Virus record (IMG/VR): IMGVR_UViG_3300021437_000069
Span: 1 to 29,117 of that record
Direction: 5' to 3' (one strand)
From: a virus
DNA: 29,117 nt
The notes beneath the pieces are model-generated. The model was not told where the DNA came from and ran no database searches. It was given only the letters and a program-made list of their open reading frames with translations. Position 1 is the stretch's first letter, and each line of letters opens with the position of its first letter. Both the position numbers and the translations under genes were made by a program. Shown here one piece after another: positions 3,507 through 29,117 of this stretch.

Positions 3507-4007
3507 TTAGAGCGAGCTGACCTTGATCTTGGCACCCCCCCCTCGACTGCACACCGCTGAATAAGTCAAAGCGATCGCCGTCACCAGATCGTCATGCTCC
3601 CCAGAGGGAGCCCCATAAGAGGTAAGGCCGGTCGCCGTCTCGTGCTTTTCATAGGCCAAGAGTTGTTTTTCGAGTTCTACATGATCCGGCCAAGAGAGGT
3701 CTTCTTCCTCAAGGCCAATACGCAGGCGGTCCATCATCGCCGCCTTTGGCTGGCTCTTCATTTGTATGCCGACCACGCCGGTCATGCCCTCAGCGCGTAA
3801 GGCTTGGGTAATCGGGTCTCCCACCGAGCCGCCGGTCGCGTCAATAAAGCAGATTGGCTTAAAATACTGTTCCCAGATCAGTTTGATCCGACTCTTTTGC
3901 TCACCCCAGCCCCCCTGAAATTGTTTCAGGTAGACCAAACCGTTATTGGCTAGGTCAAAAATGGCGACCGCGCTAAAGTCCCGCACCCTTCCTAAGTCCA
4001 CCCCCAT
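3507..4007 (-). CDS. Large terminase, C-terminal nuclease half (separated by in-frame TAA)
   Basis: These 166 residues form the RNase H-like nuclease domain of the large terminase. It starts with GVDLGRVRDFSAVAIFD (first metal aspartate), then FIDATGGSVGD (second acidic site), and ends with GEHDDLVTAIALTYS (third). It is in the same frame as the ATPase half upstream: only the TAA at 4032-4034 and eight sense codons lie between that stop and this ATG. The ATG has no SD in front of it, which suggests this was one protein of about 440 residues that a single codon now interrupts. It may be made by readthrough, by weak re-initiation, or not at all. A sequencing or assembly error is also possible. 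Confidence 0.85.
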   Translation of the reverse strand: MGVDLGRVRDFSAVAIFDLANNGLVYLKQFQGGWGEQKSRIKLIWEQYFKPICFIDATGGSVGDPITQALRAEGMTGVVGIQMKSQPKAAMMDRLRIGLEEEDLSWPDHVELEKQLLAYEKHETATGLTSYGAPSGEHDDLVTAIALTYSAVCSRGGGAKIKVSSL

Positions 4008-4031
4008 TGCATAGCGGTGTCCCAGAATCGG

Positions 4032-4835
4032 TTAAGAGTAACCAAAGGCGGGGTTAGAAAATTCCCCGCGTCGGCATTGCGAAATAGCCCACGGCGGGAA
4101 GGCTTGGCCGGAAAACTCAAGGAATTGCGCATAAATCTCTTGCGAGACCCACGTCTTGTCCTTGCCACGACACATGGTTTTAATGACTTCGGGATCGAGA
4201 TAGGGGTTATCGAACGAAGTGTAGCGCCAAGAGCGCCAGTCAGGGTCTTTCAATAAATTCTGTTTTACCGTCACGCCGTTCGTACACATTACGCAACCTA
4301 CCCCGCCGCAAGTCCTACAAGGCAGCTCGATCGAGTCCTGACCTTTGTTGAACCAGTCATAGAAATGGTTGCGACCTTTAGGACTGCTGCCGAAATTAGC
4401 CCAACCGTTGTTATCCATGAGTCCAAATTCGACAATGCTCCAAATATCAGGCGGGAAGTGAGCCGCCTCGTCGATCGTGACTATAATCAAGTCCGCACCG
4501 ACCGAGCGTAAATTGTCCGGCTCTTCAGAGGTCTTAAACTCTAGCCGAGACCCCCACCGGAACGTAATATCTCTTTCAGTGACTCGATATTTCTTGATAT
4601 GAGGCTCGTAGAGTCGCAATGCCTCTTCCCAGATCGGACGCAACTGCTTATAGGTCTTCGAGATATACCAGCCAATATAGCCTGGATATTCGTAAAGTTT
4701 TAGGAAATCCTCGGCCAACAGACAGGTGCTTTTCCCCCATCTTCGCCCTGCTACGAGCAATTTCCTTTTTTCCTCCGCCTTATGGAAATGCAGTTGGCCC
4801 CGGTGAGGCTTGTAATTGAGGGAAACGGAACTCAT
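4032..4835 (-). CDS. Large terminase, N-terminal ATPase half, with a zinc-knuckle insert
   Basis: This is the ATPase motor domain of the packaging terminase, 267 residues. Walker A is GRRWGKST (30-37). LIIVTIDEAAH (about 116-126) carries Walker B and the catalytic glutamate, and NFGSSPKGRNHFYDWF is the usual coupling motif. After it comes an unusual DnaJ-type cysteine cluster, CRTCGGVGCVMC (C173, C176, C181, C184), likely to bind zinc. The frame ends at TAA 4032-4034, in the linker before the nuclease domain (see 3507-4007). The ATG at 4835 abuts the stop of the upstream gene with no gap, so translation is probably coupled. Normal large terminases of this type have both domains in one chain. 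Confidence 0.9.
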   Translation of the reverse strand: MSSVSLNYKPHRGQLHFHKAEEKRKLLVAGRRWGKSTCLLAEDFLKLYEYPGYIGWYISKTYKQLRPIWEEALRLYEPHIKKYRVTERDITFRWGSRLEFKTSEEPDNLRSVGADLIIVTIDEAAHFPPDIWSIVEFGLMDNNGWANFGSSPKGRNHFYDWFNKGQDSIELPCRTCGGVGCVMCTNGVTVKQNLLKDPDWRSWRYTSFDNPYLDPEVIKTMCRGKDKTWVSQEIYAQFLEFSGQAFPPWAISQCRRGEFSNPAFGYS

Positions 4836-5681: not shown

Positions 5682-6515
5682 GTGCCACCTATGTTCAGCA
5701 AAGCCATTCGAGAGTTGTTGGCCGACCCGTCCGTCCAAGAATCCCCCAACGAACAAGTCCTTGCCTGGGTAGAGACCGTGCAAAATGGTAGGTTAATGCA
5801 AACTGTTTTGAATGAATATGCCTACCAGCATAGAGTTATCTCAGAGGCAGACCAAAAGCGGTGTGAAGCGCAAATTCTCGCGGGGGAAAAAGCCAGAGAA
5901 AGGATTCTCAAGTCCTTCCTAAAAGTAATCGCCAAGACCGCCGGACAATACGGCAAAGAGTACGGACATGAGGACGACTTGTTCCAGATCGGCGTGCAGG
6001 CCACTTATAAAGCGGTAGCTCACTTCAATAAATACAAAGGCAGTTCCTTCATTGCCTATTTGTATGCCTACCTGCAAGACGCCTTTGGCAAGCACAGCCG
6101 CCGCTACTGGCGCACCGGCGCTAACAAAGCCAGAGCCATGCTCACCGCCGACCTACCCCTATCAGAAAATAATGAAGAAGAAGTGGACGAAGAACGATTC
6201 CCCGACCCGCACCACTTTCGCTCACCCCACTCTGAGGGAAGACAACAATGGCTGCTCGAACAAATGCAAGCCTGGGTGGAGGAGCAGCCGACAGAAGAAA
6301 GAGATACGATCGTGCTCGCGTTCGGACTCTATGACGGGATTATGAGAACGAACGGCAATGTCTGCCAAATCCTGCGCAAACCCAAACCCCAAGTGAATCG
6401 AATCATTAAAAAAGCCAAGCAAGCGCTGAGAGAAAAGTTCCCTGCTTACTGCTCGGTGAACACCGGCGGACAACGCTCGCAGCGTCCCGTGTCCGGGTCT
6501 TTAACTAAGTGGTGA
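5682..6515 (+). CDS. Sigma-70-like transcription factor, late-gene regulator candidate
   Basis: This is a 277-residue protein with a sigma region-2-like segment (about residues 98-143: DDLFQIGVQATYKAVAHFN ... SFIAYLYAYLQDAFGKHSRR), matching the core-polymerase-binding and -10 helices. A weaker region-4-like helix pair lies near the end (about 205-250, NVCQILRKPKPQVNRIIKKAKQALREKF). The start is GTG at 5682, four bases after an AAAGGCGG site; an ATG three codons later is the alternative. It is transcribed away from the packaging/head operon, as expected for a phage factor that turns late genes on. The last 70 bases overlap the opposite-strand gene at 6446. The role is inferred; the family pattern in region 2 is clear. 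Confidence 0.7.
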   Translation: MPPMFSKAIRELLADPSVQESPNEQVLAWVETVQNGRLMQTVLNEYAYQHRVISEADQKRCEAQILAGEKARERILKSFLKVIAKTAGQYGKEYGHEDDLFQIGVQATYKAVAHFNKYKGSSFIAYLYAYLQDAFGKHSRRYWRTGANKARAMLTADLPLSENNEEEVDEERFPDPHHFRSPHSEGRQQWLLEQMQAWVEEQPTEERDTIVLAFGLYDGIMRTNGNVCQILRKPKPQVNRIIKKAKQALREKFPAYCSVNTGGQRSQRPVSGSLTKW

Positions 6516-6817
6516 AGCGGACAGATTTGATCCAGGTAGTCAGGCGGTTCGGGTTCTTTGAGGTCGTCTTTCGTGACCCCCATTTGTTTCACTATGTCAT
6601 GGCGCACCCTACGACCGTCGTAGGCGTCGCAGGCAAAGACGATCAGGTCACCGAGAGAGATTCCGAGCTTACCCGCCTTCTCGATCATTCGGTTCTTTTC
6701 GGTGCGGGTGAGCCGCACCCCGATCTCCACCGTGCGTCGTTCAGTGGTCATGGCCAATTTACGCTGGGGTCTGCCAGTGGGTCTACCCCCCGGATCAGCA
6801 GGCGGTTTCTTCCACAT
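6446..6817 (-). CDS. Ribbon-helix-helix-like DNA-binding protein
   Basis: This is a 123-residue basic protein. Residues about 25-65 (RRTVEIGVRLTRTEKNRMIEKAGKLGISLGDLIVFACDAY) read as one strand followed by two helices, the pattern of MobC/CopG-type ribbon-helix-helix proteins. A short cysteine/histidine group follows near the C-terminus (CPLHH ... CERCPP), possibly zinc-binding. The ATG at 6817 has AGGA nine bases upstream and lies four bases after the stop of the preceding gene, so the two are co-transcribed. It converges on the sigma-like gene with a 70-base overlap. It is one of few candidates in the window for the protein that binds the repeated CTCTAACNGTTAGAG palindrome; that link is conjecture. 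Confidence 0.65.
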   Translation of the reverse strand: MWKKPPADPGGRPTGRPQRKLAMTTERRTVEIGVRLTRTEKNRMIEKAGKLGISLGDLIVFACDAYDGRRVRHDIVKQMGVTKDDLKEPEPPDYLDQICPLHHLVKDPDTGRCERCPPVFTEQ

Positions 6818-6821
6818 TGGT

Positions 6822-7298
6822 CTAGTCCTGGTAGGGGTCAAGCTGCATTTCAATGACGATTTCGTCCATTTTAATGCTCTCTGGATAGTCTATGACTATG
6901 ATTTTATTGTGTCCGGCCAAGACCCAATTCAACAATTGGTTGGCTAAATGATCCTCACACGCCAACTCAAGGGTGTCATTGGTATGCCAGTTGCTAAAAA
7001 CAAGCGTGAGCACACATTCGTCCCGATCGCCGCTAAAATCAACCAACCGCAAATGATAGTCGAGCGGCGTCAAGTATTGGCGCAAGGACACCAGAGATTG
7101 CACACTGCTATCCTCTGCCAGCACTCTCTTGACCAGACTTAGCACCCGGCCATGATCGGCGGGGTGTAAACGAGAATTATCCTCTTCTTCAACAAGCGGC
7201 ATGGCGCTAACGAACTCTTGTACCTGTTGCATATTTAATCTGCCTTCCGCCATGTTGTCAGTCGCAATTGTCTTCTTGAACTGTTCCAATGACTCCAT
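6822..7298 (-). CDS. Unknown protein carrying a copy of the capsid N-terminal arm
   Basis: This is a 158-residue acidic protein. Its first 30 residues (MESLEQFKKTIATDNM AEGRLNMQQVQEF) nearly repeat the first 35 of the major capsid protein (LEQLKKAIATNNV TEGKLNLQQAQEF). At DNA level, 7212-7289 matches 491-568 at about 63 of 78 bases by hand count. The rest (PADHGRVLSLVKRVLAEDSS ... LVDFSGDRDECVLTLVF ... KIIVIDYPESIKMDEIVIEMQL) shows no likeness to the capsid or to anything I recognise. The start has a strong GAGGTGAT site. It lies next to the integrase, far from the head operon. It could co-assemble with or disturb the shell, or be a relic of recombination. Confidence 0.75.
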   Translation of the reverse strand: MESLEQFKKTIATDNMAEGRLNMQQVQEFVSAMPLVEEEDNSRLHPADHGRVLSLVKRVLAEDSSVQSLVSLRQYLTPLDYHLRLVDFSGDRDECVLTLVFSNWHTNDTLELACEDHLANQLLNWVLAGHNKIIVIDYPESIKMDEIVIEMQLDPYQD

Positions 7299-7330: not shown

Positions 7331-7345
7331 CTCTCACTGTTAGAG
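7331..7345. promoter_or_regulatory. Operator-like palindrome, copy 1
   Basis: CTCTCACTGTTAGAG, one mismatch from the perfect palindrome CTCTAACNGTTAGAG that recurs at 16177, 18817, 22477 and 22597. It touches the -35 box at 7346, so a bound regulator would block that promoter. It also lies 33 bases upstream of the minus-strand gene starting at 7298. Confidence 0.6.
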
Positions 7346-7396: not shown

Positions 7397-7408
7397 TCTA
7401 AGGTCTTT
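7397..7408 (+). repeat. Direct repeat flanking the attachment region, left copy
   Basis: TCTAAGGTCTTT, repeated exactly at 7623-7634. The two copies bracket both tRNA-like fragments and sit just before the integrase start, as arm-type integrase-binding sites often do. Confidence 0.5.
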
Positions 7409-7466
7409 CAGTGAGGATATTTGAGGTTTATGCAGATTGGTAGGCGCTTTTAGTAAAACATGAAAT

Positions 7467-7513
7467 CGCCTACGGCTTAGAAGGCCGTCGCTCTTCCTTT
7501 GAGCTACGGGCGC
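7467..7513 (-). other. 5' half of a tRNA-Arg(TCT)-like sequence
   Basis: Read on the minus strand from 7513, the sequence gives an acceptor strand GCGCCCG, TA, a D arm (GCTC - AAAGGAA - GAGC) and an anticodon arm (ACGGC - CTTCTAA - GCCGT) with anticodon TCT (arginine). All stems pair. No variable loop, T arm or 3' acceptor strand follows, so it cannot be a working tRNA by itself. It is probably a tRNA gene fragment picked up at an attachment site. Confidence 0.6.
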
Positions 7514-7535
7514 AAGCTTTACGCTCTAGTGTAAC

Positions 7536-7588
7536 GGCTCAGAGAAGCGATGGCAAGCCATAGGTTGCAGGTTCGAGTCCCGCCGTGC
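7536..7588 (+). other. Degenerate tRNA-like 3' half, candidate attP core
   Basis: The plus strand carries AAGCCATAGGTTGCAGG followed by the T-loop consensus TTCGAGTCC and CGCCGTGC, the layout of the anticodon-stem 3' strand, variable loop and T arm of a tRNA-Arg. The anticodon hairpin is shortened to ATGGC-AA-GCCAT, so about five loop bases are missing. The T stem has one mismatch (GCAGG/CCCGC). The integrase starts 50 bases downstream, the usual place for an attP core that matches the 3' half of a host tRNA gene. Confidence 0.5.
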
Positions 7589-7622
7589 AAAGGCCTTGAA
7601 CTGACCCTAAAAAGAGGGGAAG

Positions 7623-7634
7623 TCTAAGGTCTTT
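7623..7634 (+). repeat. Direct repeat flanking the attachment region, right copy
   Basis: Exact second copy of TCTAAGGTCTTT (first at 7397). It overlaps the AAGG ribosome site of the integrase and ends five bases before its ATG, so a protein bound here could also limit integrase expression. Confidence 0.5.
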
Positions 7635-7638
7635 TATC

Positions 7639-8550
7639 ATGCAGATCACAACGCTGCAAACACTCGCGGACGCGATCGACGCATTCACTCTCTACGCTCG
7701 TGTAGAGGGACGACTACCCAAGACGCTAAAAACATATCAACAGGCATTCAGCGATTTTCAAACGTTTATTCACAAAGACACGGCACTGTTAGGGTTGGCG
7801 ACAGGCGACTTTCGGCGTTGGGTCTCACAACGCCTCGACGAAGGCTACTCGAAAGTCACGATCAACATTCGACTGCGAGTGCTGCATACGCTCTTTCATT
7901 GGCTGGTGCGCGAAGGTCACTTAGCTGAAAGTCCCATGCAGCAGATCAAGCCGCTCAAGGTCCCGCGCCAGTATCCGTTCGTGCTCTCGACTGAACAAGT
8001 CCGGGCGCTCTTGAAGGCCGTCCCGAAGCATACCTGGACGGGCAAGCGCAACTGGGCCATGCTGCTCACCTTCTTAGACGGTATGCTGCGGCTCTCGGAA
8101 CTGATTCACTTGGAACTCGCGGACGTGAGTCTACAAGCACGGTCGCTCAGGGTCAGGCATGGTAAGGGGGATAAGGAACGGATCGTATTCATGGGCCGAC
8201 GCCTGACCCGCGCGCTGCAAGACTGGCTGCATGTGAGAGGTCACCAGCTCGGGGAAGAGTCACTGTTCGTCACCCGAGGGGTTTATCGCCTTGATCAACG
8301 CAACATTGGTCGGATCATTGAGCGCTTGGCAAAGGAAGCCCGTATAGAGGGGGTGCGTTGTTCGCCGCACACGCTGCGTCATACTGGCGCGACATTGTTT
8401 ATTAGGAATGGCGGCGATCCATTTAGCCTGCAACAGCTCTTAGGCCATTCGGATATTAGCACGACCATGGTCTATGTGCATATGGCGGGGACGGCGTTGA
8501 GAGAGGCACATGCTAAGGCGAGTCCGGTGGATCGACTGTTGGAAGATTGA
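7639..8550 (+). CDS. int: Tyrosine recombinase, phage integrase
   Basis: This is a 303-residue tyrosine recombinase that would integrate and excise the phage DNA. The N-terminal SAM-like core-binding domain spans about residues 1-100 (ADAIDAFTLYARVEGR ... TYQQAFSDFQTF). The catalytic domain has the full set: R151 in GMLRLSEL, K176 in HGKGDKER, H244/R247 in PHTLRHTG, H270 in LLGHSD and the nucleophile Y279 in TTMVYVHM. Length and domain order are normal for XerC/D-like phage integrases. The ATG at 7639 is preceded by AAGG at 11 bases. The tRNA-like sequence and direct repeats just upstream make this the attachment region. Confidence 0.95.
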   Translation: MQITTLQTLADAIDAFTLYARVEGRLPKTLKTYQQAFSDFQTFIHKDTALLGLATGDFRRWVSQRLDEGYSKVTINIRLRVLHTLFHWLVREGHLAESPMQQIKPLKVPRQYPFVLSTEQVRALLKAVPKHTWTGKRNWAMLLTFLDGMLRLSELIHLELADVSLQARSLRVRHGKGDKERIVFMGRRLTRALQDWLHVRGHQLGEESLFVTRGVYRLDQRNIGRIIERLAKEARIEGVRCSPHTLRHTGATLFIRNGGDPFSLQQLLGHSDISTTMVYVHMAGTALREAHAKASPVDRLLED

Positions 8551-10308: not shown

Positions 10309-12042
10309 TTATCGCTTAATGACGATTTTCACAACGCTGGTCTTACCTTCCATGTCTTTCTTGACCGCTAAGTAGACACCGTTGGCAAGACGATCCTGTA
10401 ACTTAGCCATTGCCTCAGATGTCTGGTCAAGCGCGATCGCCTTACCATGTAAGTCATAGATTGAGACTGACTTGACGCTCTTCTGGAAGATTTGATCGAC
10501 GATGGCTATGAGTCGAGCCATCTGAGGCGTGACTGTACCGCTCCCACCCGAATTGCTTCTCCTGATGACTACAGCCATATTAACGCCTGCGAGGTCAAGC
10601 TGGGTATATGAGTTAATTACTATCGACCCATTCCCTGCAATACTATGACCTGAATCTGTGCCAAAATAGAGTGAATCGTTATTTAATATCTGGACCGTTC
10701 CTAGTACACCGAAACCGTCAAGGCGACGATAACGAGCATCTACAGGACCGGATTGGGAAACGCTTGGTTGTTTGTCCCAGTTGAAGTAAATGTTAGATGT
10801 ATTCAAGGGTTGTTCAGTTGAGGTTCTATTGAAAACTCCCGCCGTATTCGTCGTGGAATCCAAAGTAACCTGCGCACCCCAGCCGCTTGTGCAAATCGTA
10901 CCACTGTTACGCTTAAAATATGCAGCCTCGTTCACAAGAACAGGCGTCGATATATCGTTTGATATTTTTGTATAGGCCACTATCCATTGACCACTATTAC
11001 GGCCATTGACGAGCATCGGCTCATCATATTGATAGTTGGCTGTTGGACTAGTAGCCTGGAACACTGACATATTCCCCGTTATATCGGTGAATGTACCACC
11101 AAGAGCCAAAAGATCAAATCCATTGTCTGTATTCCCAGCAGTAAGGCCTGCGGCAACCATACAAACATTGTTATCTGAGGCAATTGCAGCCGTAATTTCG
11201 GCAGCTTCTTGCCATTGAGTTGATCCACTCCCATCTTTTATGAGCGTAGGAGTTGACCACGTCGCGCCATTATCCTGAGAATAGAGGAAGAAAAAGCCTG
11301 TCTTGGGAACACCATTGCTTAGTGTACCATCCCAAGGGGAAACGATCATCGCTGTAGGACTTTCGTTACTTTGTCTTGCAAGCCTAGCACCTCCGCATTG
11401 AAAGAAACAATAGCCTCTGAAAGTCACTCCCGTCGGCATTATAGGAGTTGCAATGGCCGTTGGCGCACTATAGGAGAAAGCGCCATTATTGTTCGTGATT
11501 CTAACATACACGGCTCCAGTAAGCTCTTGCTGATCCAAGCTACCAAAGAAGTTACAGTTAGGTCCTTGAGATGAGACACCGATAAGGACATGAACATACT
11601 CAGTGGTATTATTACCCACTGTATTAGACAAAGAGATTGTAGCTTCTGATCCCCCTGGAGAATATTTTCCATCAAAACCCCTTTTTCTCATACATTGGAT
11701 ATATCCCAGTCCATTGGTTACATGATCATATATCAGCGTGGGAGAAGACCAAGTCGCTCCACTGTCAGAGCTGGTAATGAAGAAGGCTTGAGTTCTTACC
11801 CCTTGCGGGTCTGGTGCATACGCTGACATAATAGTGTATACCAAATAAAAACGACTGCTGAACAAGTTGCTGGGTTGAATGTCATTTGAGTAAATGGTGT
11901 CGGTAGGATGAGCAGCTATAGTCACAAGAGTCTGTTTGTCAAGCCAACTGGCATAGCCATTCACCGAGATACCGACAGATAGAGCCAAAACCGCCACTAG
12001 ACAAACGACCGCCGAAACTGCATACTTGGAAATGTGGTTCAT
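10309..12042 (-). CDS. Secreted Asp-box (BNR) repeat protein with C-terminal sorting-type domain
   Basis: This is a 577-residue exported protein. A signal peptide covers residues 1 to about 31. Two Asp-box motifs of the sialidase/BNR type are seen: SSDSGATW (91-98) and SQDNGATW (255-262), each followed by S(S/T)PTLI, so the body is probably a beta-propeller. The last 55 residues (SVSIYDLHGKAIAL ... RLANGVYLAV ... VVKIVIKR) match the C-terminal beta domain used for T9SS sorting or the related FlgD-like domain. Sialidase catalytic arginines could not be placed, so no enzyme activity is claimed. The SD GGGAGG is strong. Such a protein is not a usual virion part; it fits cargo that acts at or outside the host surface. 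Confidence 0.75.
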   Translation of the reverse strand: MNHISKYAVSAVVCLVAVLALSVGISVNGYASWLDKQTLVTIAAHPTDTIYSNDIQPSNLFSSRFYLVYTIMSAYAPDPQGVRTQAFFITSSDSGATWSSPTLIYDHVTNGLGYIQCMRKRGFDGKYSPGGSEATISLSNTVGNNTTEYVHVLIGVSSQGPNCNFFGSLDQQELTGAVYVRITNNNGAFSYSAPTAIATPIMPTGVTFRGYCFFQCGGARLARQSNESPTAMIVSPWDGTLSNGVPKTGFFFLYSQDNGATWSTPTLIKDGSGSTQWQEAAEITAAIASDNNVCMVAAGLTAGNTDNGFDLLALGGTFTDITGNMSVFQATSPTANYQYDEPMLVNGRNSGQWIVAYTKISNDISTPVLVNEAAYFKRNSGTICTSGWGAQVTLDSTTNTAGVFNRTSTEQPLNTSNIYFNWDKQPSVSQSGPVDARYRRLDGFGVLGTVQILNNDSLYFGTDSGHSIAGNGSIVINSYTQLDLAGVNMAVVIRRSNSGGSGTVTPQMARLIAIVDQIFQKSVKSVSIYDLHGKAIALDQTSEAMAKLQDRLANGVYLAVKKDMEGKTSVVKIVIKR

Positions 12043-14263: not shown

Positions 14264-15394
14264 TTACTTCGCCCCCACTTCGTTGCCCCAGGCCGTCCAC
14301 CCCGCACGCTCGGTCCTCGCAAAAAGCTCAAGATACTTTTGCCCCGGACACATGCGCTCCATTAGGTCATAAAACTCTTTAGGCTTGCTGCTGTGCGCCC
14401 CACGCTTGGCCGTGACTACTGACGCCGGTCGGCGCGCCTCTTCGGGAATTACTGGGTTTCCATGCCTAGCGATCAACAACAATTCGTGCTGCCCGCGCAC
14501 CCAAAACCCCATGCCGATCTTATCCTTCACCCACACCATGTTCGTCACATACTCGAATCCCCACTTTTCAATAACCTGTAACGCTTCTCTCAGCTTAGGA
14601 TTGGTCGCCCACAAAAAGAGCACCGCGTCCTCCGCCGCTACCTCTCCCACCTTGAGCGCACAGATCCCCTCCAGACTCATAGTCGGGTATTGGTTCTCAA
14701 TCTGCCTGCTCTCCGTTGGGCTAAAGTCATACTGCCACGGCGGGTCTGCATAAATCACCGAAAACTTGTCCGCAGGCAGCGCCACTGCCTCCGACCGCCT
14801 CTCCCGCCGATTCGTTTCCCTCACCGCCCGACTCAACCTCACCTCTCCCGCCAATACCCTCTCCGCCAACTCCGGGTCTGCCTCCTCCAACGCCAGCGCC
14901 CTCTCCACTTTCTTACGCGATACATTTAACGCCTCAGCCACCTGTTGACGAGTATCAGTCTTCTCCTTGTCGCCTACGGGGGGCGACAAGGAGACCTCGC
15001 CATGCTTTTTCTCGTTCGCTCTTTCTGACCTGCTCTTCTTCGCCGCCTCTGATAACGGCTTCCTCAGCCTCGCCGCCAATACCGCCCGCTGATCGTCACT
15101 CAAATGCCTCCGCACGATCGCCGACCGCAAAATAAACAACACCTGCCCCGCCTCACTCAACTCCACATACCGCACCGGCACCCGCTCTACCCCGGCCGCC
15201 TTCGCCCCCTCCCACCTATGCCTCCCGTCTAAAATAACATTCGGCCCCTGCACTACCAGCGGCTCCTGCACCCCGTCTGCCTTAATACTTCCCCAGAGCG
15301 CCTTCTGCTCGTCTTCCCTCATCCTCGGTATCATTCCCGCCGCCGGGTGTAAGCTCAGTCCGCTTACCTCTACTAACTCAATCTTCGTATCCAT
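14264..15394 (-). CDS. ParB/MT-A70 DNA adenine methyltransferase
   Basis: This is a 376-residue fusion. Residues 1-110 are a ParB/Spo0J-like nuclease-fold domain (LVVQG, LDGRHRWEGAKAAG at 54-67). A central stretch with a helix-turn-helix look (QQVAEALNVSRKKVERALAL, about 150-169) follows. Residues 205-376 are an MT-A70-type adenine-N6 methyltransferase with the catalytic DPPW at 217-220 in VIYADPPWQYDFS and further family parts (VLFLWATNPKL, GQHELLLIARHG, SSKPKEFYDLMERM). Phage enzymes of this architecture modify phage DNA against host restriction or mark genes. It is first in its operon. GGGAGGAG lies 26 bases before the ATG, too far for normal use; the nearer TTAGGT is weak. Confidence 0.9.
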   Translation of the reverse strand: MDTKIELVEVSGLSLHPAAGMIPRMREDEQKALWGSIKADGVQEPLVVQGPNVILDGRHRWEGAKAAGVERVPVRYVELSEAGQVLFILRSAIVRRHLSDDQRAVLAARLRKPLSEAAKKSRSERANEKKHGEVSLSPPVGDKEKTDTRQQVAEALNVSRKKVERALALEEADPELAERVLAGEVRLSRAVRETNRRERRSEAVALPADKFSVIYADPPWQYDFSPTESRQIENQYPTMSLEGICALKVGEVAAEDAVLFLWATNPKLREALQVIEKWGFEYVTNMVWVKDKIGMGFWVRGQHELLLIARHGNPVIPEEARRPASVVTAKRGAHSSKPKEFYDLMERMCPGQKYLELFARTERAGWTAWGNEVGAK

Positions 15395-15924: not shown

Positions 15925-16263
15925 AACACTAAGCGTAGGGACAAGCCCCCCTCTGGCGTGCAAGGCGCTAGGCGCTATCAGACGTTGCGCGAGAAAGCGA
16001 CAAGCACTAACAGCAAAGCGCAATCTCGCAAGGCGTAGCCAAGGACTCTTCAAGGGCTGCTGGCACACAGCACGGCCACAGAGAGTACCAGCAAGCGATC
16101 TAAGCCAAGAGCGCTGAGAACGTGCAACCTCAATGCTCAAAGGCAAAGGAAGCCGTCCAAGCGCGGCGACAACGCGCTCTAACTGTTAGGGAAAGAAGCG
16201 TGAATGACTTAACAGCTTAGCGGGAATCAGCACGATACGCGATTAGAGCACAGACGCGAAGAG
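15925..16263. other. 339-base stretch without a gene, structured
   Basis: No open frame on either strand looks real. GACGTTGCGCGA at 15980-15991 repeats 15728-15739 exactly, and in both places GCGCAA follows (15754, 16018), so the same hairpin occurs twice. TTGC-gc-GAGA (15984-15993) can also pair with TCTC-GCAA (about 16025-16031). An operator-like palindrome lies at 16177. The stretch could hold a phage small RNA or the leader of an early transcript. Confidence 0.4.
16177..16191. promoter_or_regulatory. Operator-like palindrome, copy 2
   Basis: CTCTAACTGTTAGGG, one mismatch from CTCTAACNGTTAGAG. It lies in the gene-free stretch between the 48-residue gene and the minus-strand VTQQ gene. 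Confidence 0.6.
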
Positions 16264-16650
16264 CTATTCTGCATTGGGAACAGGATGTCTACGAGCTTCA
16301 CGCTGAGCGGCAAAGCACGTACCACAATAACCACCCTGCATAGCAATCAGGGATTGAACCCCACAATGCTTGCATGTGTAGGAACGTGCTGGCTGTTGTG
16401 TAACAGATTCTTGTTGCACAACACTTTGTTGCACAACAGACTTAACTTGTTGTGTAACTGCTTGTTGTGTAACAGGCTTTTCCACAACAGGCTGTTGTGT
16501 AACAACCTCTTGTTGTGTAACTGAATCTTGTTGTGCAACAGACTCAGCCTGTAGATAGCGATGCTTGACCTTACCGTCAGCGTCCCTATAGCCTTCGACC
16601 AGATACTCGTAAACTTTCCCGTTCCGTTTCACTTTGCGAATAAATGCCAT
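16264..16650 (-). CDS. VTQQ-repeat protein with C-terminal zinc ribbon
   Basis: This is a 128-residue protein in three parts. Residues 1-34 (MAFIRKVKRNGKVYEYLVEGYRDADGK VKHRYLQ) match the small N-terminal module common in transposases and phage proteins. Residues 35-90 are a low-complexity run of VTQQ and VVQQ units. The last 35 have CKHCG ... GYCGTC, a likely zinc ribbon. The ATG at 16650 is chosen because the module starts there; there is no good SD, and a longer reading from 16773 shows only cysteine-rich noise. The repeat part is coded by the 10-base repeats listed at 16395-16539. It is the only minus-strand gene among the early region genes. Its function is unknown. Confidence 0.6.
   Translation of the reverse strand: MAFIRKVKRNGKVYEYLVEGYRDADGKVKHRYLQAESVAQQDSVTQQEVVTQQPVVEKPVTQQAVTQQVKSVVQQSVVQQESVTQQPARSYTCKHCGVQSLIAMQGGYCGTCFAAQREARRHPVPNAE
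16395..16539. repeat. Eight copies of a GTTGNNNAAC 10-mer
   Basis: GTTGTGTAAC five times, GTTGCACAAC twice and GTTGTGCAAC once, spaced irregularly by about 12 to 33 bases. They encode the VTQQ repeats of the gene at 16264-16650, but the half-palindromic unit is conserved better than the protein needs, so they could also be protein-binding sites. Too short and too even with coding for a CRISPR array. Confidence 0.6.
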
Positions 16651-16768
16651 AACACTATAACAACTAGGATTTACACAACAACGCAAAATGTGGTGCAACT
16701 GGCATAACCCTTCGCGGCGCTGTGCACACCCGAAAAGACATAGCGCAAGCAGCGCCACTGCATATATA

Positions 16769-16819
16769 CGCATGTATGCAGGGTGCCAAAAAACATGTAT
16801 GGCAACATGCGTTTGGCAC
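16769..16819. promoter_or_regulatory. Cluster of inverted repeats before the early gene run
   Basis: GTGCCAAA (16783-16790) with TTTGGCAC (16812-16819), and CGCATG (about 16769-16774) with CATGCG (about 16806-16811), nested around CATGT-type short palindromes. It lies 50 bases before the first small plus-strand gene, so it may be the control site of that operon. No clear -35/-10 pair was found. Confidence 0.4.
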
Positions 16820-18606: not shown

Positions 18607-18822
18607 ATGAGGCAGGCATGGCATACGATTCAACCTAAAGATCGTGAACGTATTCGATGCAGTCGCTGCCGTGAGACAAGCGCAAAATACTGTCAGCATT
18701 GGTATTGGGACACTGGCGCACAAAAAGGTGTCAGTTTCTTTTATCTTTGCGAACGATGCGCTTACGATCAAGTGACTACCCAAAAGCAACAACACCACTA
18801 CTCGACACTAAGTCACGTCTAA
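18607..18822 (+). CDS. Small zinc-finger protein, 71 residues
   Basis: MRQAWHTIQPKDRERIRCSRCRETSAKYCQHW ... SFFYLCERCAYDQ: two CxxC pairs 32 residues apart make a treble-clef or ribbon zinc site. The ATG at 18607 stands after AAGGGGTG, four bases after the previous stop. It ends the gene block: operator copy 3 overlaps its stop codon and a terminator follows. Such zinc ribbons in phages often bind DNA or host enzymes; the target is unknown. Confidence 0.65.
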   Translation: MRQAWHTIQPKDRERIRCSRCRETSAKYCQHWYWDTGAQKGVSFFYLCERCAYDQVTTQKQQHHYSTLSHV

Positions 18823-18831
18823 CCGTTAGAC
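18817..18831. promoter_or_regulatory. Operator-like palindrome, copy 3
   Basis: GTCTAACCGTTAGAC, a perfect 15-base palindrome with the same CTAACNGTTAG core. It overlaps the stop codon of the gene before it and lies 10 bases before a terminator hairpin. Confidence 0.65.
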
Positions 18832-20666: not shown

Positions 20667-21302
20667 ATGAAGTTTGAAATAAATTCTTGGCTCACTGGCA
20701 AAATTCTTTTCAGTTTTGAAACCGAAACGATCAAATTGGCAGTCGAGGCGGCGGTCAAACAACGCGCTTATCTGCGAGACGCTTATCTGCGAGACGTTAA
20801 TCTGCAAGACGCTGATCTGCAACGCGCTTATCTGCGAGACGTTAATCTGCAAGACGCTGATCTGCAACGCGCTTATCTGCAAGGCGCTAATCTGCAAGGC
20901 GCGAAAAACTTGAACAAGTATGCAGTTACGCCATTACTCATTTTGCTCGATCAGCCCGGCAAGATAAGAGTTTACAAGCTCGTAAAAGAAAACGGTGAAG
21001 GACCATTTAATGGAGAAGTTGTTTACAAAAAAGGCAAGACAATCTCAGTAAAGGACATCGACAAAGATGAGTTTGTGCAATGCGGCAAAGGGATTAATGT
21101 CGCAACGCTCGACTGGTGTATCAAAGAATGGAAAGAAGGTTATCGCATTCTGATTGTAGAGTTTACGGCAAAGGATATTGCTTGCATACCTGTTGCAACT
21201 GACGGGAAATTCAGACTAATCAAGTGCCGCGTCATAGGAGAGAAAGACCTGCGTGAGATAGGCTTAATAAAGGAGGAAAGTCATGTTCAAAGTCAGTCTT
21301 GA
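20667..21302 (+). CDS. Pentapeptide-repeat protein with an extra C-terminal domain
   Basis: This is a 211-residue protein. After a short N-terminal module (EINSWLTGKILFSFETETI) come nine pentapeptide repeats A(Y/N/D)L(R/Q)x, residues about 34-78, enough for two turns of a right-handed beta helix. The C-terminal 130 residues (YAVTPLLILLDQPGKIRVYKLV ... GINVATLDWCIKEW ... YRILIVEFTAKDIACIP) resemble the phage domain that often follows such repeats (DUF5758-like). The repeat run is shorter than in gyrase-mimic proteins, so gyrase action is not claimed. SD GAAGGGAAG. Repeats are nearly identical in DNA, see 20766-20900. Confidence 0.85.
   Translation: MKFEINSWLTGKILFSFETETIKLAVEAAVKQRAYLRDAYLRDVNLQDADLQRAYLRDVNLQDADLQRAYLQGANLQGAKNLNKYAVTPLLILLDQPGKIRVYKLVKENGEGPFNGEVVYKKGKTISVKDIDKDEFVQCGKGINVATLDWCIKEWKEGYRILIVEFTAKDIACIPVATDGKFRLIKCRVIGEKDLREIGLIKEESHVQSQS
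20766..20900 (+). repeat. Nine 15-base units with a 45-base duplication
   Basis: Nine units of 15 bases (such as GCTTATCTGCGAGAC) code for the pentapeptide repeats. The 45-base block 20781-20825 is copied without change at 20826-20870, so the array grew recently by slippage or unequal crossing-over. The number of units may vary between relatives. Confidence 0.9.
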
Positions 21303-22476: not shown

Positions 22477-22491
22477 CTCTAACAGTTAGAA
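22477..22491. promoter_or_regulatory. Operator-like palindrome, copy 4
   Basis: CTCTAACAGTTAGAA, one mismatch from the consensus, four bases after the stop of the membrane protein gene. Confidence 0.65.
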
Positions 22492-22596: not shown

Positions 22597-22611
22597 CTCT
22601 AACAGTTAGAG
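22597..22611. promoter_or_regulatory. Operator-like palindrome, copy 5
   Basis: CTCTAACAGTTAGAG, perfect, extending to the 19-base palindrome CGCTCTAACAGTTAGAGCG (22595-22613). It lies directly behind the terminator and 38 bases before the gene at 22649, so it may control the next transcript. Confidence 0.75.
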
Positions 22612-22648: not shown

Positions 22649-22957
22649 ATGACTATCCATGTCGAGATTACGCAGGAAGACATTGAGCGCTGTCAGCCCG
22701 GCAGCCAAGTCACGCCATTAACACTGGCAGTCCGGCGCGAGTTATTAAACCAGCATATCTCTACCGAGCACTTTTATGTCGGCGCAGCCTGCGCTTATGT
22801 CCAGAGCTGGCCGTATGAGTTGCCACAGTGCGCAGTGGATTGGATCAGAGCGTGGGATCGAGGGGAGCTGGTCGCGCCGCTCGCGTTTGAGTTGAGATTG
22901 GAAAGGGTGAATGGACGTGGCAAGAAAGAAGTACCGGCGACGCAGAACAGATCGTAG
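22649..22957 (+). CDS. Small phage protein, ITQEDI / LP-V-x-W family
   Basis: A 102-residue protein of a widespread phage family: ITQEDIERCQPGSQVTPLTLAVRREL ... YELPQCAVDWIRAWDRGELVAPLAFEL. Its usual core is an N-terminal strand with ITxEDI, a conserved polar helix, and a C-terminal D-x-G-x-x-V-x-P-x-x-F motif; all are present. Function is not established. SD GAAAGGAG. It is the first gene behind operator copy 5 and overlaps the sigma-like gene. Confidence 0.8.
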   Translation: MTIHVEITQEDIERCQPGSQVTPLTLAVRRELLNQHISTEHFYVGAACAYVQSWPYELPQCAVDWIRAWDRGELVAPLAFELRLERVNGRGKKEVPATQNRS

Positions 22958-23492
22958 CGAATGGAACCTCATGGCTGCCAAGCGTGCAATGAATATGATT
23001 ACCTTTGAAACAATAAATGAAAAGTGGAAATCCCTGTACAACAGCGACTACAACGTTCTTTCCGAAGAAACAATACCCGACCAGCACGAGATCGACATGC
23101 GCAAATTGGAACGGAAAAGAGAAGTCATTCTGTGGCTCTTGCAAGAAACCGAACTCTTGGATCGAGAAAGGAAAGTGCTCGAACTACGTTACGGTTTTCG
23201 TATCTGCAAAGGCCAATGGATCGAGACAGAACGCTTGACCCTGGAAAAACTCGGTCAACGTTTGCAAGTGACCAGAGAAGCGGTCAGGCAAATTCAAAAC
23301 AGAGCAATCAATAAACTAAGGAGGACCTATGCCGCACGCCAACAGTGCTCACCAGAAGAAACGTCTGCAAAATCCAGAATATCTGGAGTTTCTGAGAACG
23401 GTCGGGAAGAACGGCGGTCACAAAACCGGCAAGAAATTCAAAGTAATTTTACCCGCATGGTATCTCAAAGAAAGGAAGGCGAAACAGCATGA
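22911..23492 (+). CDS. Sigma region-4-like DNA-binding protein
   Basis: This is a 193-residue protein. Residues about 84-138 (LDRERKVLELRYGFR ... LTLEKLGQRLQVTREAVRQIQNRAINKLRR) are a textbook sigma-70 region 4, including the helix-turn-helix that reads -35 boxes. Region 2 is absent; the N-terminal part is short and basic. The ATG at 22911 follows GAAAGGGTGA and overlaps the previous gene by 47 bases. The last 54 residues, after the region 4 helix, lack order and are read in a different frame from the overlapping gene at 23329. The stop overlaps the next ATG (ATGA). It may pair with the region-2-type protein at 5682, or bind an existing sigma factor; neither is shown. Confidence 0.8.
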   Translation: MDVARKKYRRRRTDRSEWNLMAAKRAMNMITFETINEKWKSLYNSDYNVLSEETIPDQHEIDMRKLERKREVILWLLQETELLDRERKVLELRYGFRICKGQWIETERLTLEKLGQRLQVTREAVRQIQNRAINKLRRTYAARQQCSPEETSAKSRISGVSENGREERRSQNRQEIQSNFTRMVSQRKEGETA

Positions 23493-28397: not shown

Positions 28398-29117
28398 GGT
28401 TTTTCACACAACTGCCGACGCATAAGCAAACGGTGCTCATGCAAGGTTGGGCGGAAATTAAAAACATGCGCAATAAATTATTGGAAGATTTCGTGCGGAT
28501 CGGCGGCAGCCTGAAGCTGATCCGTGAGGTAATCGGCAACTCTTCGCAGTATGAACTCTTTACCGAGAAGGCGCTCGGTATGTCGCTACGCATGGCCGAG
28601 CGCTATGAGCAAATCCACACGAAATATGCGGATAGCTTTCAAGACCTTGCCAAGATTCCCAACGTGCCAATGGGTGTCTATCTCGAACTGGCGCGACCCG
28701 AATTTCCCGAAGAAGCAAAGCAAAAACTGCTTGCCGGTTCAGAGGTTGAGGTTGAAGGCAAGGCAGTAGGAATCGATACCGTGACCCTGAAACAACTGGA
28801 AGACTATCGCAAGAAGAATGAACAGTTGACTGACAGTTTGAAGCGCTTGCAAAAAGAATTGAAAGAGGCGAATGGCGCAAAGCAGGCCAATCAGGCCAAG
28901 CAGGCGGAACCCGACAAACTCACCGAGCTTCAAGCCACCGTGAAAAACCAAAAAGGCGAGATCGAAGAGCTGAGTGAAAAGCTCGAAGTCTTTGAGTCGC
29001 AGAAAGAAAAACACCAAGAGCGTATCGGTCTGCTCTTTGCCATATCGACAGGTTTCAAGAGCGTGGACTCCCAACTCCAACAGTTAGACTCGCTCTTGCA
29101 TAATTTTAGGAAAATCG
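28376..29117 (+). CDS. DUF3102-like coiled-coil protein (3' end missing)
   Basis: The gene runs off the right edge; 247 codons are visible. Residues 25-95 (GWAEIKNMRNKLLEDFVRIGGSLKLIREVIGNSSQYELFTEKALGMSLRMAERYEQI) match the DUF3102-type helical domain found on phages and plasmids. After PNVPMGVYLELARPEFPEEAKQKLL comes a long coiled coil (about 140-230, KQLEDYRKKNEQLTDSLKRL ... EIEELSEKLEVFES). SD AAAGGAGATT is ideal. Known relatives have no firm function; partition or segregation-type roles are suspected by context only. Confidence 0.75.
   Translation, partial: MPEIYELGFFTQLPTHKQTVLMQGWAEIKNMRNKLLEDFVRIGGSLKLIREVIGNSSQYELFTEKALGMSLRMAERYEQIHTKYADSFQDLAKIPNVPMGVYLELARPEFPEEAKQKLLAGSEVEVEGKAVGIDTVTLKQLEDYRKKNEQLTDSLKRLQKELKEANGAKQANQAKQAEPDKLTELQATVKNQKGEIEELSEKLEVFESQKEKHQERIGLLFAISTGFKSVDSQLQQLDSLLHNFRKI

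Follow-up and report, generated by a model that had tools for sequence, protein, structure and literature searches.

The N-terminal arm of a major capsid protein (MCP) was found to be copied, without its translation start, onto a separate 158-aa protein encoded in the same virus record. This record, IMGVR_UViG_3300021437_000069, is a linear virus fragment of 29,117 bases, which was analysed over its whole length (hereafter, the window) and which suggests a temperate-looking phage. Among the explanations weighed below, the one that we tentatively place first is that a temperate phage uses the 158-aa protein as an accessory protein, the captured arm of which may contact the shell or the scaffold of phages of this type and thereby modulate or block capsid assembly.

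Copy of the capsid arm on the 158-aa protein

The segments compared in this analysis are as follows.

2 to 592, − strand: MCP, HK97-type, assigned by PHROG 1623 (E 3.4e-28)
491 to 567, − strand: MCP arm segment, the source of the copy or the sister of that source, matched by blastn to 7212–7288
6822 to 7298, − strand: ORF of the 158-aa protein, consisting of a captured MCP arm (residues ~2–30) and a body with no family match
7212 to 7288, − strand: copy of the coding segment of the MCP arm, identical to 491–567 (−) at 63 of 77 nt (E 3e-18)
6825 to 7199, − strand: body (residues 34–158), with no database or fold match

The first-pass annotation had described the MCP arm as copied onto this separate protein. 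The blastn match confirmed this copy at the DNA level, and a search of the whole record with the 158-aa protein detected, besides the query, nothing but the MCP arm (E 2.3e-8, residues 2–33). The hand count of 63 identical bases in 78 proved exact, since comparison of 26 codons (78 nt) between the two genes gave 15 base differences. No other non-tandem direct repeat of the window is as long as this copy. On a score for a second arm copy, the 158-aa gene reached 105, compared with at most 34 elsewhere in the window; related phages, the MCP loci of which were scanned likewise, reached at most 48, and none of them carried a second arm within its own locus. Chance was thus rejected as the cause of the match, based on the blastn E value and the gap between 105 and the maximum of 48.

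The similarity to the MCP ends after residue ~30 of the 158-aa protein. Both proteins had been said to begin with the shared motif; the shared segment is real, but the MCP does not start there, carrying ~8 extra residues ahead of it. The start codon and the ribosome-binding site of the MCP both lie outside the copied segment, and capture of the arm as a translation start was rejected because the ribosome-binding site and ATG context of the 158-aa gene differ from those of the MCP. Since the arm is a native, conserved part of MCPs, we infer that the copying proceeded from the MCP to the 158-aa protein.

For the 158-aa gene itself, a GAGGTGAT ribosome-binding site is located immediately 5′ of the ATG. 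Its codon score, 0.21 bits/codon, exceeded all of the 650 null windows taken from non-coding frames of known genes (mean −0.05, maximum 0.20), while the body alone scored 0.16, near the top of the null. The GC content by codon position was 0.56/0.28/0.58. Based on the ribosome-binding site, the closely spaced next gene and the codon score, the 158-aa protein is very probably translated. A promoter scan detected no strong promoter for the arm gene.

Conservation of the arm and selection

We then compared the copy with the arms of related MCPs, 51 distinct sequences in all. Each of them carries G24, Q30 and F34, and conservation is also seen at L26 (50/51), K14 (45/51) and E10 (35/51). The 158-aa protein is identical at all six positions, and the copied DNA extends as far as F34, beyond which no position of the MCP arm family is invariant. 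Because the copy starts past the start codon and ends at F34, it comprises the conserved arm itself without the translation start. The two arms of the window are alike at 19 of 33 positions, while the best agreement with other arms was 12/32 for the 158-aa protein and 14/33 for the MCP. The pairwise dN/dS of the two window arms was about 0.23 (bootstrap 95% 0.06–0.76), a value to which constraint on the MCP branch contributes as well and which a recent capture from the MCP of a diverged relative would likewise give. Amino acid replacements in the arm were milder than expected from neutral drift (p 0.011), and a stop codon would have arisen in 52% of neutral arm simulations. Taken together, the endpoint at F34, the retained near-invariant residues and the dN/dS value suggest that a functional docking module, not a random sequence, was captured.

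These data also bear on a chimera without any capsid role, in which illegitimate or short-homology recombination would have placed an MCP segment onto the 5′ end of an unrelated accessory gene, leaving an N-terminus that is merely tolerated. Phage mosaics of such a kind are generally known to be common, the copied segment is short, the arm-plus-body protein is a single orphan example and, as noted above, a recent capture could by itself account for the low dN/dS. However, no simple capture of a translation start took place, the reading frame is intact across both junctions, no arm invariant is lost and the end of the fragment coincides with that of the conserved arm. The retention of invariant residues and the dN/dS below 1 support kept function over a dead chimera, and we regard the chimera without a capsid role as somewhat unlikely.

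Body of the 158-aa protein and search for relatives

The rest of the protein had been called unrelated to the MCP, in agreement with the comparison of the body with the MCP profile (hhalign probability 0.7%). Neither this comparison nor PHROG 1623, which gave no match for the 158-aa protein, detected an HK97-type capsid fold (E-loop, P and A domains) beyond the arm. The protein as a degenerate full-length MCP paralogue was rejected on the lack of MCP similarity in the body. The body matched nothing in PHROGs, Pfam, NCBIfam or PADLOC, nor among PDB sequences, and no described defence model in PADLOC-DB 2.0.0 (E up to 1) matched the 158-aa protein. The elements predicted for the body, at low confidence, are in order two helices, three strands, a helix and two short strands. 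Single-sequence AF2 models were of low confidence (mean pLDDT 52 for the whole protein and 60 for the body), and no meaningful fold match was found for them, the best VIA-align Z being 4.7 and all rows under 5.

Relatives of the body were detected neither in viral contigs, genome contigs, and phage and plasmid records, nor in the 37 whole records or genomes behind related MCP loci; the best weak matches to the 158-aa protein had E 0.4 and covered the body region only, and those scans that were based on patterns detect no more than close relatives. Degenerate arm patterns gave 0 matches in viral contigs; the second of these patterns does recover the two copies of the window. For the MCP pattern search, an alignment of nine MCPs was too diverse, whereas a three-member alignment worked. 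Among the related MCP loci, contig L097, assigned to an Archaeoglobales MAG by binning, is the same as the IMG/VR virus contig L020 in length, range and MCP arm, which may reflect an archaeal virus or misbinning.

Head genes and other genes of the window

The head genes are arranged on the − strand in the order terminase (from 4835 downwards), portal, protease with a coiled-coil tail, and MCP. The MCP ORF is truncated at the beginning of the record, and the first 197 residues are present. PHROG 1623, which it matches, carries the label ‘virion structural protein’; MCP relatives were found in 60 annotated phage records, most of them labelled major capsid protein. The prohead protease gene (606–2111, − strand) encodes a Peptidase_S78 domain and a long coiled-coil C-terminal part, and is likely a protease–scaffold fusion. 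The gene for the terminase large subunit (3507–4835, − strand) comprises two ORFs that lie in separate frames, the ATPase part at 4032–4835 and a second part at 3507–4007 assigned by position; this split may be natural, reflect a programmed frameshift or stem from a sequence error. The closest TerL relatives of this phage stand at only 29–30%, and portal and sigma-factor searches revealed no near relatives.

Several other genes were observed. The ORF at 14264–15394 (−) encodes a ParB-N domain fused to an MT-A70 adenine methyltransferase, that at 16264–16773 (−) contains repeated VTQQ/VVQQ segments from a TGTTGTGTAAC-type DNA repeat, and that at 20667–21302 (+) encodes a pentapeptide-like repeat protein with a 15-nt DNA repeat, across which two frames are open. 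Two separate sigma-factor-like genes are present, one of region 2 type (5682–6515, +) and one of region 4 type (22911–23492, +). For the BNR-repeat protein encoded at 10309–12042 (−), a type IX secretion sorting tail was detected weakly (E 0.012), which hints at a Bacteroidota-like host.

Neighbourhood of the arm gene

The arm gene is surrounded by the following features.

6446 to 6817, − strand: downstream partner gene, for a ribbon-helix-helix/NikA-like DNA-binding protein (Pfam PF21983, E 1.4e-4)
7331 to 7345: operator-like palindrome CTCTCACTGTTAGAG, a member of the dispersed CTCTAACNGTTAGAG set
7397 to 7634: attP-like region between the arm gene and the integrase gene, with 12-bp direct repeats TCTAAGGTCTTT and a partial tRNA
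7639 to 8550, + strand: tyrosine integrase (Pfam PF00589, E 2.6e-35)

The arm gene had been placed beside the integrase; the two are indeed neighbours, but they lie 340 bp apart on opposite strands with the att-like region between them. Within this region, the 12-bp repeats start at 7397 and 7623, 226 bp apart. The partial tRNA (7461–7513, − strand) was detected by Rfam (E 0.0018) at 26.4 bits, short of the gathering score of 29, and an ARAGORN scan of the window detected no tRNA. The anticodon-loop sequence CTTCTAA of this truncated tRNA suggests Arg TCT, and a second decayed T-arm-like stretch is seemingly present on the + strand near 7560–7590. We consider 7397–7634 to be a putative attP, based on its sequence features; if so, the integrated prophage would carry the arm gene at one end. 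Prophage ends are a usual place of lysogeny-linked accessory genes.

The palindrome CTCTCACTGTTAGAG is located 33 bp upstream of the ATG of the arm gene. With up to 3 mismatches, the CTCTAACNGTTAGAG palindrome occurs at 9 sites in comparison with 1.0 expected, and 9 sites were reached in none of 100 shuffles. The sites with 0–2 mismatches are at 7331–7345, 16177–16191, 18817–18831, 22477–22491, 22597–22611 and 29075–29089. This dispersed set may represent the operators of a phage repressor and is a candidate repressor regulon.

The location of the gene bears on a role as cargo, in which the arm would serve as a capsid tag, and the body would enter the prohead as an internal head protein, be injected and act in the next host. 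As in T4-type internal head proteins, a short N-terminal tag is joined to a small unrelated body, and the arm invariants are retained; T4-like phages reportedly have internal head proteins with an N-terminal capsid targeting sequence, a tag that the prohead protease removes. The T4 tag, however, is not known to derive from the MCP. Moreover, the arm gene is not part of the head operon; with an operator-like site upstream and attP close by, its setting fits lysogeny-linked genes over late virion genes. We consider such a cargo role improbable.

The partner gene begins with an ATG 4 nt past the stop codon of the arm gene, and the match of its product to PF21983 (NikA-like) scored 22.4 bits, below the cutoff of 27. 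This close spacing of a gene for a DNA-binding-like protein would suit a sensor or decoy, the arm mimicking an incoming capsid while the body and the ribbon-helix-helix partner react to the capsid or scaffold in defence or as a timing switch; capsid-triggered defences are known. Against such a sensor stand the negative PADLOC search and the lack of a known effector domain in the body by PHROGs, Pfam and NCBIfam, and we judge it very unlikely.

Discussion

In the mechanism that we tentatively prefer, that of an assembly-modulating accessory protein, the arm would have been taken from the MCP of the phage itself or of a near relative. The arm may keep the contact that it makes in the MCP, either with adjacent capsid subunits or with the scaffolding portion of the protease–scaffold protein, and the 158-aa protein may then join or cap shells in formation if the phage has this MCP. 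From the position of the arm gene at the edge of attP and its repressor-type operator, the protein probably has its own timing of expression, either in the lysogen or at an early stage, and the partner gene product could be a small DNA-binding regulator. As a result, when a phage of this kind superinfects or is expressed prematurely, its capsid assembly would be lowered or modified. A lone N-arm without the rest of the subunit may, however, fail to bind in HK97-type capsids. A stronger form of this mechanism, in which the self-derived arm mimic, encoded beside attP under repressor-type control, would bring about homotypic exclusion of superinfecting phages at capsid assembly, free of any satellite, is unlikely in our estimation.

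The first-pass annotation had likened the protein to satellite-encoded factors that act on capsid assembly. A shared segment of the CpmB kind bears this out in part; the satellite status does not hold, and a satellite without its own capsid genes was rejected, since the record encodes terminase, portal, prohead protease and MCP. CpmB of SaPI1 (Staphylococcus aureus pathogenicity island) docks on the capsid via a short stretch at its C-terminus that is homologous to the phage scaffold, with which it shares the RIIK motif and the preceding helix, the rest being unrelated (PMC5644958). The 158-aa protein is likewise a small protein in which a short segment of a morphogenesis protein, here the MCP arm with 63/77 nt and its invariants kept, is joined to an unrelated remainder. 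In contrast to CpmB, with its C-terminal, scaffold-derived segment and known dimer domain, the segment of the 158-aa protein is N-terminal and MCP-derived, and its record has its own capsid genes, whereas CpmB is satellite-encoded. Judged by sequence, the 158-aa protein is thus CpmB-like in form but not a member of that class.

Ccm of SaPIbov5 is a capsid-protein homologue that takes the pentamer positions and redirects assembly (PMC8569155). As with Ccm, the 158-aa gene is a second gene with capsid-protein homology and its product could alter assembly. However, Ccm has a complete HK97 fold that is 24% identical to the CP and occupies pentamers, while the 158-aa protein shares only the ~26–30 residues of the arm and its body is not HK97-like by profile comparison. 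Rcm of SaPIpT1028 binds the MCP (PMC12409344), and Rcm, Sid of P4 and TcaP of PLE are small capsid-protein-binding proteins that change assembly (PMC12409344; PMC10945586). Unlike the 158-aa protein, these three are satellite-encoded, and a copied capsid-arm segment is not reported for them in the passages covered. In the openly accessible literature, we found no report of another phage-encoded protein that carries an MCP arm.

If the arm of the 158-aa protein docks, further cases could be sought by a simple rule, namely, an MCP N-arm on short non-capsid proteins encoded next to attP, and the protein would offer a direct test of what an isolated N-arm binds in an HK97-type shell. Its logic would be comparable to that of the satellite proteins CpmB and Ccm, yet it would be built only from the conserved arm of the phage's own MCP. 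Provided that the arm still docks, the 158-aa protein would represent a self-derived factor, encoded by a phage, that inhibits or modulates capsid assembly.
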